Shown one piece after another: positions 17,081 through 21,949 of a stretch of DNA of 64,000 nucleotides; position 1 is the first letter of the stretch; each line of letters begins with the position of its first letter. The DNA is from Flavobacteriaceae bacterium (GTDB lineage Bacteria; Bacteroidota; Bacteroidia; Flavobacteriales; Flavobacteriaceae), in assembly GCA_023262185.1 (NCBI GenBank), contig JALRDO010000001.1:1-64000 (forward strand), written 5' to 3'. Position numbers and translations under genes: made by a program. The notes under the pieces are model-generated. The model was not told where the DNA came from, made no database searches, and was given only the letters and a program-made list of their open reading frames with translations.

Positions 17081-18352
17081 ATGAAAAGAATAGTACTTTT
17101 CGCAATGGCCGCTGGAGCTACGCTTTCGGTCGCTGCTCAAAAAGATGAACTTAAAGAGGCTTCCAGAGCTTTTAAAAAAGGAGATGCAGCAGAAACGCTT
17201 GCTCAACTATCCCCACTTGAAGGGTCTATCAGCTCTGCTGAAGAAAAGTATCAAGGAGACTACTACTTGTTATTAGGAGACGCGTCATTGCAACTTGCAA
17301 AGGCGGGTGATTTAGAGCGCTACCAAGCAGCAATTTCGGCATACCAGTCATTGATCGCTATGGAAGAGGCTTCTGGGAAATCTAGATACACTGATCAAAT
17401 AGCCATGTCTTTGGCAGAAATCGCGAATGATTATGTAAATCTCGCGGTAGAGGATCAGAAAACCGAGAACTACGCAGGAGCGGCACAGAAGCTTTTTCAG
17501 AGCTATGCGTTAAGCCCAAGAGATACTATTTACTTGTATTACGCTGCAGGATCAGCGGTTAATGGAGGAGATTTTGGACAAGCTCTAGAGTATTACATCA
17601 AGCTTAGAGACATCAATTATGACGGAAGTGAGAAGCGCTATGGGGCCATTAACATTGAAACTTCAGAAATGGAGTACTTTGATAAGGCAACCCGTGACCT
17701 TTATGTAAAGGGAGGTACTCACAAAGATCCATCTGATGAGAATACACCTTCAAAGCGCTCTGAGGTTGTGAAAAATATCGCTCTGATCTATCAGCAACAA
17801 GGAAGAAATGATGAGGCGCTAGAAGCGTATGAGGTTGCACAGGCTCAAAATCCAGGAGACATTGCATTGCTCTTAAATAAGGCTAATCTGTATTATAATA
17901 TTGGTCAGCCAGAAAAGTTCAAGGAAATGATGAAAGATGCGATCGCTATTGATCCAAACAATCCTGATTTGCATTACAATATTGGGGTTATCAGTTCTGA
18001 GCAAGGAAATATTGAAGAGGCAAGAGCCGCCTACAAAAAGGCTATTGAGATCAATCCGACCTACATCAATGCGATACTCAACCTCTCTTCAACTTACGTA
18101 AATGAAGGGAATGCGTTGGTAGACGAGATGAATACACTAGCAATGTCTACTAAGCAGTCAGATTACGATAAGTACGATGCACTCAAAGAGAAAAAAGACA
18201 ATTTATTTAGAGAAAGTGCTGCGGTTTTAGAGGCTGCCCTTGAAAACCTTCCGAACAACAATGATCTGTTGACACAGTTAAGGAATCTTTACGGAGCACT
18301 TGGAGACAACGAAAACTTCAAGCGTATCTTAAGTCTTATGGAGCAATCATAA
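17081..18352 (+). CDS. exported TPR-repeat protein
   Basis: 423 residues with a signal peptide (MKRIVLFAMAAGATLSVAAQ, cleavage probably after AAQ). The mature part is helical with TPR units, clearest around residues 225-345: NIALIYQQQGRNDEALEAYE, ALLLNKANLYYNIGQPEKF and LHYNIGVISSEQGNIEEAR with AYKKAIEINPT. Likely a periplasmic or outer-membrane-associated scaffold; no enzymatic motif is visible. It follows gyrA in the same direction and ends before a strong terminator. Confidence 0.85.
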   Translation: MKRIVLFAMAAGATLSVAAQKDELKEASRAFKKGDAAETLAQLSPLEGSISSAEEKYQGDYYLLLGDASLQLAKAGDLERYQAAISAYQSLIAMEEASGKSRYTDQIAMSLAEIANDYVNLAVEDQKTENYAGAAQKLFQSYALSPRDTIYLYYAAGSAVNGGDFGQALEYYIKLRDINYDGSEKRYGAINIETSEMEYFDKATRDLYVKGGTHKDPSDENTPSKRSEVVKNIALIYQQQGRNDEALEAYEVAQAQNPGDIALLLNKANLYYNIGQPEKFKEMMKDAIAIDPNNPDLHYNIGVISSEQGNIEEARAAYKKAIEINPTYINAILNLSSTYVNEGNALVDEMNTLAMSTKQSDYDKYDALKEKKDNLFRESAAVLEAALENLPNNNDLLTQLRNLYGALGDNENFKRILSLMEQS

Positions 18353-18373: not shown

Positions 18374-18408
18374 AGAAAAAACCCTCACTTTTAAGTGAGG
18401 GTTTTTTT
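18374..18408. terminator. bidirectional terminator between the TPR and NlpC genes
   Basis: AACCCTCACTT and AAGTGAGGGTT form a long perfect stem with flanking A and T runs (A run at 18376-18381, T run at 18402-18408), so it can end transcripts from both sides. It overlaps the last codon of the minus-strand NlpC/P60 gene. Confidence 0.9.
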
Positions 18409-19177
18409 ATTGAAGCGTTTTAATGACGCGAAGCGAGTGGGTATATTGGTTAAGGTCGGGGTTAAAGATGCCCGTGTGGTCTAACCGGTCGATGCGCACA
18501 CATCCGTGAGCGTGAATGATATAGTTGTTTGGGAGTACAAGACCAACGTGTATCAAATTCCCTTCATGGTCATCAAAGAATGCCAGATCTCCTGGTTGAC
18601 TTTCTTCAATAAACGAAAGAGTTTTTCCTTGATTGGACTGTGAGATAACATCGCGATCTAGAAATAGATGACATGTTTTATACACCATCTGTGTAAATCC
18701 GCTTGCGTCTATTCCAAATGGAGACCTGCCCCCGAGCATATAGGGTGCATATGTGTATTTCAGCGCTGTGTTCACAAGCTGCTCAGAAAGGGTTTTTCCT
18801 TCAACCTTAAAGCTGTCGTGGGAGACCTCTAGCTCGTGATTTATAAATTGGGTGGCGTCTAGTCTTGAACCTAATAACAAGGGTAGGGCACCGTGAACAC
18901 CGACAAGTGCATAATGCGTCAAGTTTTGATTGTAAACCGCTTTAGTGTAGTCTGAGAGGGCACGAAAGGCGTCAGGATCTAGAGCGGTAAATAGACCGTT
19001 TAAAATGTACCCTTCAGTTTGATCGTAGTGCAACTTGATTTTAGACCAAAATTTTTGGATTTCAACACATTCAAAATGGTCTCCGTAAAGCAACTGATTC
19101 ACGATACTACTCGCCTCGCTAGGTTCGCGGTACACATTAATAACACTAAGTGCGCAAATTCCGTACTGACTACTCAA
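18407..19177 (-). CDS. NlpC/P60 (C40) family protein with catalytic Cys replaced by Ala
   Basis: 256 residues. N-terminal bacterial SH3 segment (about 1-62: YGICALSVINVYREPSEAS, YDQTEGYI), a second SH3-like region, and a C-terminal NlpC/P60 fold (about 135-250). Family members are gamma-D-glutamyl-diamino acid endopeptidases acting on peptidoglycan peptides. The nucleophile motif normally reads GIDCSGF; here it is GIDA158SGF with a clear GCA codon at 18704-18706. The histidines remain (IHVGLVL, H210; IIHAHG, H222). The protein is therefore predicted not to be a peptidase and may bind peptidoglycan or muropeptides. No signal peptide is visible. Start taken as TTG at 19177; no ATG is available nearby. 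Confidence 0.85.
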   Translation of the reverse strand: MSSQYGICALSVINVYREPSEASSIVNQLLYGDHFECVEIQKFWSKIKLHYDQTEGYILNGLFTALDPDAFRALSDYTKAVYNQNLTHYALVGVHGALPLLLGSRLDATQFINHELEVSHDSFKVEGKTLSEQLVNTALKYTYAPYMLGGRSPFGIDASGFTQMVYKTCHLFLDRDVISQSNQGKTLSFIEESQPGDLAFFDDHEGNLIHVGLVLPNNYIIHAHGCVRIDRLDHTGIFNPDLNQYTHSLRVIKTLQ

Positions 19178-19254: not shown

Positions 19255-21297
19255 ATGTCTCGTCTTCTTGCCGATGCGCAGCGCCTGCGTTTCTTTCTTT
19301 TTTCAAGCTTACTTGTAGTTATTGCAGTTGCGCTTATTGTGTGGATTTTTCCGTCGCAACATGCCTTTAATTACGAATACACTCAGGGGCGTCCTTGGCG
19401 TTACGAGACCCTATATGCGCCTTTTGATTTTTCGATAAAAAAAACTGAGGATCAGTTAAAGGCAGAACGGGAGCGGACTGCAAAAGCTAAGGTGTTCTAT
19501 TTTGACCTTGCAGAGAAACTTTCTTCATACAAAGAAGAAATCACTTCTCTTTTGAGAATTCCCTCTAACACGGCATCCAATCGAAATCAAAAGCTTTTAG
19601 CGGATCAAATAATTCAAGTTCACTCATGGATCGATTCAATTCAGCAAGCGATTGTTTTTGGAGAAGAAATCGAATTCATAGAAAATGTTAAGCTGATCAA
19701 AGGCAATGAAGCTGTTGCAATAAGGCCTGAACATCTGGTTTCGATTACCCAGCATAAAGAAAATATTGCCTTATTATCTTCTTCGTTATTTACTGAATCC
19801 CAGCTAGAGCAGGTGAAAGAATTTATTCGTGGTGTATTACAAGTCAATGCCCGTTTAAATCAAACCCTAACGGATGCGGCCTTTAAAACACAATTAGAGC
19901 AAATCTCTTTAACCCGAGGTTTGGTTCCTGAAGGTTCTCTTATCGTTGCTAAAGGAGAGATCATAGAAGATGAAAATTTTCAAGTATTAGAGTCACTCAA
20001 ATACGAGTACCAGTCTTCTTCTATTGAAGCTTCAAACGGTATATTTATTGTGATTGCCTACGCTATCCTCGTTGCTATCGTATTGGTTTTGCTGATGCTT
20101 TATCTTAGAAAATACCGTCAAGACATCTTCGAGAACAGCAATCAATTAGTATTCTTATATACCAATATTGTGCTCATGGTATTCATTACCACGCTACTGG
20201 TTGAGATCGATGAGCGCTTCGTGTTCTTATCTCCCATGAGTATTCTACCCTTAGTGCTTAAGAATTTTTTCGATGCTCGGGTGGCTTTATTTGCGCATAT
20301 CATTACGGTTTTGATTATCGCTATGACCCTTTCAAACGCTTATGAGTTTGTGTTTTTACAAATCGTGGCAGGAGTGGTAGTTATGATTGGCTCAAACGAG
20401 CTACAGAAGCGCACAAACCTATTTGCTGCAGCCTTTCAGATTACTTTAGTCTACTTGATTTCTTACACCGCATTTCACGGCTTGAATCAAGGTGGATTAC
20501 TTACTATCGACTATCAGATATTACTTCTGTTCGTCTTGAACGGGATGATCACTTTATTTGCTCAGCCCTTGATTTATCTCTTTGAAAAGCTTTTCGGTTT
20601 AGTATCGGATGTTTCGCTTCTCGAGCTGTCTGATACCAATTCAAAACTGCTTAAAGAGTTAAGTGAAAAGGCGCCAGGTACATTTAATCATAGTCTTCAG
20701 GTGGCCAATTTATGCGAAGCCTCTGCTAATGCGGTTGGTGCTAACAGTCTTTTGCTTCGGGTAGGGGCGCTTTATCACGATATCGGAAAAATGGCTCAGC
20801 CCGAATTCTTCTCTGAGAATCAGATACTCGGAACTAATCCGCATGAAGATCTTGAACCGGTTGAGAGCGCCGAGATCATTAAAAGACATGTTATAAAAGG
20901 AATTGAGATCGCAAGAAAAAACAACATTCCGGATAGAATCATCGATTTCATCCGTACGCATCACGGAAACAGTCTCATTTATTTCTTCTACAAGAAAGAG
21001 CAAGAATTAAGTGGAGCAGCCGATGAAGAAGATTTTCGTTATCCCGGACCGACTCCTTTTTCAAAAGAAACAGCCATTCTAATGATGTGTGATGCCGTAG
21101 AGGCGGCTAGTAAAAGTCTCAATCAACCTACTTACGAGATGTTGGACGCATTTGTAGAGCGCATCATTGATACTCAGGTAGAAAACGGGCAATTTGATAC
21201 TGCTGCCATTACGCTTCAAGAGATTGAACAGATTAAAAAGGTTCTTAAAAAGAAGCTCACTAACATTTATCACGTTCGGGTAGAATATCCAGAATAA
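19255..21297 (+). CDS. 7TM-HD family cyclic dinucleotide phosphodiesterase (PgpH-like)
   Basis: 680 residues from the ATG at 19255; an open extension back to GTG at 19150 overlaps the divergent NlpC gene and is not family-like. Layout: one N-terminal membrane span (FFLFSSLLVVIAVALIVWIF), an extracytoplasmic 7TMR-HDED domain (about 60-280), seven transmembrane segments (about 285-480), and a cytoplasmic HD domain with FNHSLQVANL and YHDIGKMA near residue 507, then HHGNSLIYFFY. Family members such as PgpH hydrolyse cyclic di-AMP; this substrate is inferred by family. Stands alone before the tRNA cluster. Confidence 0.92.
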   Translation: MSRLLADAQRLRFFLFSSLLVVIAVALIVWIFPSQHAFNYEYTQGRPWRYETLYAPFDFSIKKTEDQLKAERERTAKAKVFYFDLAEKLSSYKEEITSLLRIPSNTASNRNQKLLADQIIQVHSWIDSIQQAIVFGEEIEFIENVKLIKGNEAVAIRPEHLVSITQHKENIALLSSSLFTESQLEQVKEFIRGVLQVNARLNQTLTDAAFKTQLEQISLTRGLVPEGSLIVAKGEIIEDENFQVLESLKYEYQSSSIEASNGIFIVIAYAILVAIVLVLLMLYLRKYRQDIFENSNQLVFLYTNIVLMVFITTLLVEIDERFVFLSPMSILPLVLKNFFDARVALFAHIITVLIIAMTLSNAYEFVFLQIVAGVVVMIGSNELQKRTNLFAAAFQITLVYLISYTAFHGLNQGGLLTIDYQILLLFVLNGMITLFAQPLIYLFEKLFGLVSDVSLLELSDTNSKLLKELSEKAPGTFNHSLQVANLCEASANAVGANSLLLRVGALYHDIGKMAQPEFFSENQILGTNPHEDLEPVESAEIIKRHVIKGIEIARKNNIPDRIIDFIRTHHGNSLIYFFYKKEQELSGAADEEDFRYPGPTPFSKETAILMMCDAVEAASKSLNQPTYEMLDAFVERIIDTQVENGQFDTAAITLQEIEQIKKVLKKKLTNIYHVRVEYPE

Positions 21298-21383: not shown

Positions 21384-21467
21384 GGAGAGGTGCCGGAGTG
21401 GTAACGGAGCAGATTGCTAATCTGTCAGCGCGTAAGTGCTGCCTGGGTTCGAGTCCCAGTCTCTCCG
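21384..21467 (+). tRNA. tRNA-Ser (anticodon GCT)
   Basis: Acceptor GGAGAGG pairs with TCTCTCC (one G-T pair). Anticodon stem GCAGA/TCTGT encloses loop TTGCTAA, giving anticodon GCT. A long variable arm (cagcgcgtaagtgctg) is present as expected for class II tRNA-Ser, and the T arm contains GGTTCGAGTCC. CCA is not encoded. Confidence 0.97.
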
Positions 21468-21485
21468 CTGAAGACACTTTCTTTT

Positions 21486-21563
21486 CGGGGTGTAGCGTAG
21501 CCCGGTTATCGCGCCTGCTTTGGGAGCAGGAGGTCGCAGGTTCGAATCCTGCCACCCCGACCA
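21486..21563 (+). tRNA. tRNA-Pro (anticodon TGG), CCA encoded
   Basis: Acceptor CGGGGTG pairs with CACCCCG. Anticodon stem CCTGC/GCAGG encloses TTTGGGA, giving anticodon TGG. T loop GGTTCGAATCC. The 3' CCA is present at 21561-21563, unlike the other three tRNA genes in the window. It follows tRNA-Ser by 18 nt and probably shares its transcript. Confidence 0.97.
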
Positions 21564-21564
21564 G

Positions 21565-21687
21565 AAAAAAGCCCACAAACCAATTTAGGTTTGTGGGCTT
21601 TTCATTTGCACCCCGTGCCGAGTTGTACTCTAGCAAAGGGGCTCAAATGAAAAGACCTAGCCCGCAGAGCGGGCTGTGGGCTTTTTT
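21565..21687. repeat. nested inverted-repeat element downstream of tRNA-Pro
   Basis: Three levels of symmetry: an outer 13-bp pair (21565-21577 with 21675-21687), a middle 11-bp pair (CTTTTCATTTG 21598-21608 with CAAATGAAAAG 21644-21654, continued by CCCC/GGGG), and two local hairpins at 21571-21598 and 21659-21675 (AGCCCGC/GCGGGCT). No ORF of interest. Function unknown. Confidence 0.7.
21567..21602 (+). terminator. terminator after tRNA-Pro
   Basis: GCCCACAAACC (21571-21581) and GGTTTGTGGGC (21588-21598) form an 11-bp stem with a 6-nt loop, flanked by A and T runs. Directly follows tRNA-Pro and is also part of the larger nested inverted-repeat structure up to 21687. Confidence 0.9.
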
Positions 21688-21705
21688 CTGATTCGACTCC
21701 ACCTT

Positions 21706-21736
21706 CAGGATGCTTTGCGCAAGCAAAGCAATCCTG
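21706..21736. repeat. imperfect hairpin in tRNA-Pro/tRNA-Arg spacer
   Basis: CAGGATGCTTTGC (21706-21718) pairs with GCAAAGC plus ATCCTG (21723-21736) with one bulged A. No T run follows, so it is not an obvious terminator. Confidence 0.55.
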
Positions 21737-21775
21737 CCCGTCATTTAACGACTGATTTCTGTTATTAAAATCGAC

Positions 21776-21796
21776 TACTCCCCACAGTACTCCCCA
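21776..21796. repeat. two direct repeats TACTCCCCA upstream of tRNA-Arg
   Basis: The 9-mer occurs exactly at 21776-21784 and 21788-21796, 12 nt apart, in a gene-free stretch. Possible recombinase arm sites; see findings. Confidence 0.6.
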
Positions 21797-21818
21797 AATT
21801 GGGATTATTTAAAACTGT

Positions 21819-21848
21819 TTGACTTCGCCCGAATTAAATGTATCTTTG
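21819..21848 (+). promoter_or_regulatory. promoter of tRNA-Arg
   Basis: TTG at 21819-21821 and TATCTTTG at 21841-21848 with a 19-nt spacer, a full match to the Bacteroidota consensus. The tRNA begins 12 nt downstream. Confidence 0.8.
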
Positions 21849-21860
21849 CGCCTCTAAATC

Positions 21861-21934
21861 GGTCGCGTAGCTCAGCTGGATAGAGCATCTGCCTTCTAAG
21901 CAGACGGTCGCAGGTTCGAATCCTGCCGCGATCA
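21861..21934 (+). tRNA. tRNA-Arg (anticodon TCT)
   Basis: Acceptor GGTCGCG pairs with CGCGATC (one G-T pair). D arm AGCTCAGCTGGATAGAGC, anticodon stem TCTGC/GCAGA around CTTCTAA giving TCT, T arm GCAGGTTCGAATCCTGC. CCA is not encoded. Confidence 0.97.
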
Positions 21935-21949
21935 CTTAAGCATCAAGAA

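Follow-up and report, generated by a model that had tools for sequence, protein, structure and literature searches.

The catalytic nucleophile of a widespread NlpC/P60 protein, encoded in the flavobacterial DNA analysed here (a stretch of 64,000 nucleotides, referred to as the window), has been lost in the window's genus and in many separate lineages, as comparison of the orthologous sequences documents, and judged by their substitution pattern the Cys-less copies evolve under purifying selection and do not decay. The explanation we favour, and hold to be fairly probable, is that the window protein is a non-hydrolytic orthologue (a pseudoenzyme) of the YkfC/dipeptidyl-peptidase VI (DPP VI) type, probably located in the cytosol, whose ancestor had two jobs: a peptidase job that could be replaced and another one that has been kept.

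Gene and catalytic position

The features of the gene and its neighbours are compiled in Table 1. The open reading frame is free of internal stops, and its product was found to pass the curated cut-off of the NlpC/P60 family PF00877 (53.8 bits, cut-off 23). Regarding the hallmarks of a C40 peptidase, both active-site histidines are present (His210 and His222) and the catalytic Cys is replaced by Ala158. This replacement, the resulting motif GIDASGF and the GCA codon had been pointed out by the first-pass annotation and were confirmed from the sequence. Going from a Cys to an Ala codon takes two base changes or more; Ser, which occupies the site in two species of the genus, would be a one-step intermediate, the path from Cys via Ser to Ala being the shortest. 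Within the genome from which the window derives (1.64 Mb, 87 contigs, 93.8% completeness), the window gene is the only NlpC/P60 match.

Table 1. Coordinates of the NlpC/P60 gene, its key residues and its neighbours within the window
Feature	Position	Strand	Details and basis
Cys-less NlpC/P60 gene, YkfC/DPP VI-type	18407..19177	(-)	256 aa, TTG start; ORF, Pfam and fold
First SH3b domain, residues 15-59	19001..19135	(-)	Pfam SH3_16, E 1.2e-7
NlpC/P60 domain, residues 145-235	18473..18745	(-)	Pfam NLPC_P60, E 2.1e-14
Codon 158 (GCA, Ala), nucleophile position	18704..18706	(-)	Sequence; motif GIDASGF
His210 (YkfC His291), invariant	18548..18550	(-)	306/306 distinct orthologues
His222 (YkfC His303), invariant	18512..18514	(-)	306/306 distinct orthologues
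Asp176 (YkfC Asp256), retained here	18650..18652	(-)	Asp in 211/233 Cys and 12/72 Cys-less proteins
Thr54, Tyr in Cys proteins; probable YkfC Tyr118 position (motif-level)	19016..19018	(-)	Tyr in 93% of Cys and 6/72 Cys-less proteins
Leu148, Trp in Cys proteins (YkfC Trp228)	18734..18736	(-)	Trp in 223/233 Cys and 31/72 Cys-less proteins
Convergent TPR protein	17081..18352	(+)	Pfam TPR repeats; same cluster adjoins the gene in 214 loci (lower bound)
Divergent 7TM-HD membrane protein, PgpH-like	19255..21297 (start set by eye)	(+)	Pfam 7TM-7TMR_HD and HD; adjoins the gene in 187 loci (lower bound)

Loss of the nucleophile across Flavobacteriales

Of eleven genomes of the genus, including that of the window, ten are readable at the site and all of these possess Ala or Ser (motifs GIDASGF, GIDADGF, GVDSSGF and GVDASGF), the eleventh (G010) being a fragment of approximately residues 3-110 which stops short of the site. 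Since Ala or Ser is found in all ten readable congeners, neither chance nor a read error explains the replacement, in line with the earlier judgement that a read error was unlikely. To the question whether Ala is fixed in a clade, raised at the same time, the answer is that the absence of Cys is common to all ten, the actual state being Ala or Ser.

Throughout the family the gene was identified to be near-universal and single-copy: at a threshold of E 1e-40, 280 of 299 genomes gave exactly one match, mostly among the same neighbours, and a mix-up of paralogues was rejected on these grounds. From 318 loci read, 306 distinct proteins were obtained upon merging 12 identical ones, and column 158 of these holds Cys in 233, Ala in 47, Ser in 18, Gly in 4, Asn in 3 and Asp in 1. 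Cys is hence absent from 73 of 306, with Ala (47/73) as the commonest replacement and Ser following (18/73); all pocket and tree counts given below use 72 Cys-less proteins, as the fragment L010, though still among the 306, was left out of them. In the codon tally, two of the 233 Cys rows gave a wrong codon, which was attributed to script indexing.

The best maximum-likelihood tree (305 rows, active-site columns removed) requires no fewer than 24 switches between Cys and not-Cys, and the same number was obtained when further pocket columns were omitted. Well-supported branches provide 10 independent Cys/not-Cys contrasts and, assuming that Cys is never regained, the Cys-less rows fall into 29 separate clades, of which the one containing the window's genus has 15 rows. 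Among the family genomes having the gene, 59 of the 208 read were Cys-less, whereby low scorers were favoured for reading and the 72 of 280 left unread are mostly high scorers; the sample is thus non-random, one draw having been limited to the 80 best among 543 relatives. Among order-level loci outside the family, 3 of 21 read lack Cys (L271, L273, L281). As a practical consequence the automatic label 'C40 peptidase' can mislead: 280 family genomes have the gene, 208 of these were read, and no fewer than 59 carry a Cys-less copy.

Purifying selection on the Cys-less copies

Pairwise dN/dS values (Nei-Gojobori) were determined for pairs at 85-97% identity; saturation removed one of the 9 Cys-less and 25 of the 84 Cys pairs, leaving 8 and 59, respectively. 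The Cys-less pairs range from 0.032 to 0.095 (median 0.067), as compared to a median of 0.047 for the Cys pairs. Two isolates furthermore have Cys-less copies, namely Croceivirga radicis with Ala and Flagellimonas hymeniacidonis with Ser, and so do single-contig genomes, e.g., G065 and G089. An origin of the Cys-less state in a sequencing or assembly error, or in a decaying pseudogene, could appeal to the fragmented and incomplete genome from which the window derives; considering the readable congeners, the isolates, the single-contig genomes and the low dN/dS, it is excluded for practical purposes and was rated as extremely improbable. The complete reading frame together with the low dN/dS of the Cys-less pairs likewise bears out the earlier statement that the gene is no truncated pseudogene. 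Elsewhere in the sample, the orthologue at locus L215 (G131:C2) is broken up into two partial matches that overlap and contain stops, possibly a real pseudogene or a frameshift.

Fold, active site and substrate pocket

The AlphaFold2 model of the window protein (90-row alignment) reached a mean pLDDT of 96.2 and a pTM of 0.92, and structural comparison revealed matches to DPP VI (4r0k; Z 25.0, 247 residues aligned, rmsd 3.0 Å) and to Bacillus cereus YkfC (3h41; Z 24.9, 240 residues aligned, 2.8 Å). As modelled, the protein adopts the full-length YkfC/DPP VI fold, so that the fold is indeed intact, as had been supposed, and the claimed retention of the catalytic-site histidines holds for every distinct orthologue (Table 1). 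For B. cereus YkfC, the published report describes a catalytic triad of Cys238-His291-His303 and ligand-side residues which include Tyr118, Asp256, Ser239, Ser257, Tyr226 and Trp228 (PMC2954226). At the equivalent places the window protein has A158, H210 and H222, and T54, D176, S159, V177, Y146 and L148, respectively, whereby the equivalences for residues 146-222 derive from the alignment to 3h41 and that of Y54 with Tyr118 was assigned at motif level. The window protein thus has in common with the C40 members DPP VI (BT_1314) and YkfC the full-length fold and the active-site Asp-Arg-His-His, but differs in its Ala at the nucleophile position and in Thr54 and Leu148, where Cys-type relatives have Tyr and Trp.

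The Cys-less orthologues as a group turned out to have lost most of the pocket. Tyr54 is kept in 6, Tyr146 in 33, Trp148 in 31, Ser159 in 35 and Asp176 in 12 of 72 proteins, and the complete set of five survives in 205 of 233 Cys as compared to 2 of 72 Cys-less proteins. The subfamily's Asp256 equivalent, present in the window protein, is gone in 60 of its 72 Cys-less relatives. Asp157, His210 and His222 are kept in 72 of 72 Cys-less proteins and Arg175 in 71. Twelve columns combine a conservation of at least 90% among Cys proteins with a drop of more than 0.2 among their Cys-less counterparts (14, 23, 24, 54, 146-148, 158, 159, 176, 177 and 203), and at least 7 of these are pocket or nucleophile positions. 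The window protein represents a milder pocket case: Tyr146, Ser159 and Asp176 are still there, and only positions 54 (Thr) and 148 (Leu) of the five deviate. In 10 pairs on the starred branches, co-loss with Cys was assessed for the residues Asp176 (6.1 versus 0.7, median p 0.07), Ser159 (4.0 versus 0, median p 0.125), Trp148 (3.4 versus 0.7, median p 0.375) and Tyr146 (4.6 versus 0.2, median p 0.125), which are those among the listed residues for which figures were obtained; these results run counter to our reading. Separately, 18 of the 233 Cys proteins possess three or fewer of the five pocket residues (e.g., L094, L095, L241 and L248) and look as if they were en route to the loss of Cys.

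A replacement cysteine common to the 72 Cys-less proteins was not found, the commonest gain being Cys54 in 20 of them, and two contain no cysteine whatever. Column 54 is Cys in only 6 of 233 Cys proteins; that Cys54 might be a moved nucleophile was considered and rejected, its distribution being too patchy. The non-catalytic half of the first-pass description 'non-catalytic muropeptide-binding protein' is therefore supported by the sequences, with Cys gone and no shared replacement for it, and the muropeptide-binding half is weakened, since the pocket residues are largely lost along with Cys; the Cys-less proteins may bind a ligand other than a murein peptide.

With the start codons chosen, 289 of 305 orthologues have at most four residues ahead of the YGIC motif, which leaves little room for a signal peptide, and on the basis of this short N-terminus the window protein is probably devoid of one and cytosolic.

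Genes that accompany the loss

A second NlpC/P60 protein of approximately 400 aa with SH3 domains (the long paralogue) was identified in 52 of 299 family genomes. Twenty copies were fetched and 18 aligned, leaving out L336, at whose place stops are found, and L339; in all 18 aligned copies the catalytic Cys is invariant, and most copies have, as assessed by eye, a hydrophobic N-terminus with a lipobox-like Cys. In 3 of the 20 fetched stretches a YkfB-like epimerase adjoins the long paralogue. Among the 59 Cys-less genomes, 31 possess the long paralogue and 46 a YkfB-type epimerase; for the 149 Cys genomes the numbers are 16 and 34, respectively. Genome size is not a covariate in these counts, and 99 of the 118 genomes with an epimerase match were kept as YkfB-type at E values up to 1e-80, a threshold chosen post hoc. 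In 80 genomes picked by their known Cys state, an epimerase match was found in 36 of 40 Cys-less and 6 of 40 Cys genomes.

A reversible two-trait Markov model, likewise without genome size as covariate, yielded a Cys-loss rate of 2.8 with and 0.05 without the long paralogue (p 1.7e-4) and of 1.9 with and 0.04 without the epimerase (p 1.1e-5), and none of 60 simulations of unlinked traits reached either p value. Independent pairs pointed in the same direction without being significant in any set-up: with 19 pairs the figures were 4.4 versus 0.6 for the long paralogue and 5.2 versus 3.1 for the epimerase, and other set-ups gave 5.9-6.3 versus 1.3-2.5 with median p values of 0.13-0.34, which counts against the replacement idea proposed below.

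The association extends to genomes whose short gene still encodes Cys, as the pocket is damaged in 12 of 16 of these with and in 10 of 133 without the long paralogue; proteins that either lack Cys or are badly eroded, with fewer than four of the five pocket residues left, occur in 40 of 47 genomes with and 33 of 161 without it. Three 99%-complete genomes devoid of the short gene (G112, G167, G184) all carry the long paralogue. Taken from these comparative counts, a link between the loss of Cys and the replacement genes is likely. Neither gene was found in 11 of the 59 Cys-less genomes, that of the window included, which likewise speaks against replacement, and within the window's genus a replacement route is not found today. 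The genome of the window does possess an epimerase-like gene next to a DUF1611 gene (L320:459-2541), which we take to be DgcA-like. As an explanation for the window's genus this epimerase was rejected, weaker matches, taken as the same type, being present in Cys genomes as well.

Proposed explanation and its alternatives

That Cys was lost repeatedly and the protein nevertheless kept hints at a second job which does not involve cutting. The ancestral protein would accordingly have fulfilled two jobs, the first being the cutting of murein peptides by means of Cys and the pocket, and the second presumably requiring the folded protein with its Asp157-Arg175-His210-His222 cluster but not Cys. The Cys-bearing, lipoprotein-like long paralogue may cut murein peptides, probably outside the cytosol, and the dipeptide released would then pass to the YkfB-type epimerase. 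Once such another route for murein peptides was present, the peptidase job of the short protein would have become dispensable, allowing the pocket and Cys to drift under retention of the second job. Our best guess for the latter is a binding or scaffold role involving a partner or a small ligand other than the canonical tripeptide.

Three further readings were considered. According to one, the His-His-Asp-Arg centre has an ancient, Cys-independent activity and binds or converts a small cytosolic molecule in Cys and Cys-less forms alike, the peptidase activity being optional; we regard this as improbable. The idea that the protein is still an enzyme, nucleophile-free or Ser-based, with the same centre activating water or accepting another substrate, gains from the strict retention of His210, His222 and Asp157 in Cys-less proteins whose adjoining pocket residues drift, and from the 18 proteins with Ser at the site, but is hard to reconcile with Ala being the most frequent replacement and with the missing conserved substitute cysteine, and was thus judged unlikely. 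A muropeptide-binding sensor or regulator, holding the same ligand in the same pocket without Cys and signalling cell-wall turnover by its occupancy, would be compatible with the retained fold, Asp157, Arg175 and both histidines, with the Tyr146, Ser159 and Asp176 of the window protein and with the precedent of RipD, described as a non-catalytic NlpC/P60 protein that binds peptidoglycan (PMC12067865). As most substrate-holding residues are gone from the Cys-less orthologues, this possibility too was considered rather doubtful.

For the two-job explanation, which thus remains the preferred one, the loss of a nucleophile in many lineages under purifying selection amounts to a separation-of-function experiment repeated by nature. 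The second function of a widespread 'peptidase' becomes testable within one genus by means of culturable species that differ at the site, with Cys in Flagellimonas sp. 389 and Ser in F. hymeniacidonis.

Comparison with known systems

Within the open-licence PMC literature (titles and starts of abstracts), a report of this Cys loss was not found. Non-catalytic NlpC/P60 proteins as such are already known, i.e., from RipD (Rv1566c) of mycobacteria, which like the window protein is described as having Ala in place of Cys (PMC12067865) and whose structure (4jxb) is matched by our model with a Z of 12.6. The RipD triad is, according to the same source, changed altogether to Ala-Ser-Glu (PMC12067865), whereas both histidines are invariant in the window family; the SH3b domains of the window protein are a further difference. 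An assignment to the RipD type was consequently rejected, the score against NF033743 (NCBIfam RipD) being 14.1 bits at a cut-off of 215 and both histidines being kept. What appears new relative to RipD, as far as the sequences indicate, is the combination of invariant histidines with repeated loss in a single-copy orthologue, accompanied by a probable replacement.

The YkfC of Chlamydia trachomatis is reported as an NlpC/P60 homologue of Bacillus YkfC; in contrast to what is proposed for the window protein, it acts on peptides derived from peptidoglycan and is a target of cysteine protease inhibitors (PMC9928106). The nearest evolutionary analogue we came across is the fungal Dis3L2/Ssd1 pseudonucleases, for which the source states that activity was lost at least four times and that a conserved second function is thought to be present (PMC8097288). 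The pattern of repeated loss is the same; fold and organisms are unrelated, and the second function is partly known there.

Genomic neighbourhood

The surroundings of the gene are conserved, also for Cys-less copies, which is a further point against decay; as some loci are short, every neighbour count is to be read as a minimum. In at least 268 loci (208 Cys, 60 Cys-less) a thiolase with a median length of 392 aa lies directly upstream at a median gap of 21 bp, and in L014 (L014:305-1477) it was identified by Pfam Thiolase_N and Thiolase_C; this arrangement suggests that the thiolase and NlpC/P60 genes form an operon. Near relatives of the window (L001 and L003-L007) lack the thiolase at this position, and the window's genome has a single thiolase, located elsewhere. 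Despite its conservation the thiolase was hence dropped as key to the function. An inverted repeat noticed by eye near 18380-18402 was considered as a shared terminator and abandoned, as the scan did not list it. Elsewhere in the window, positions 21384-21935 hold three tRNA genes (Ser, Pro and Arg), the short open reading frames there being probably spurious.
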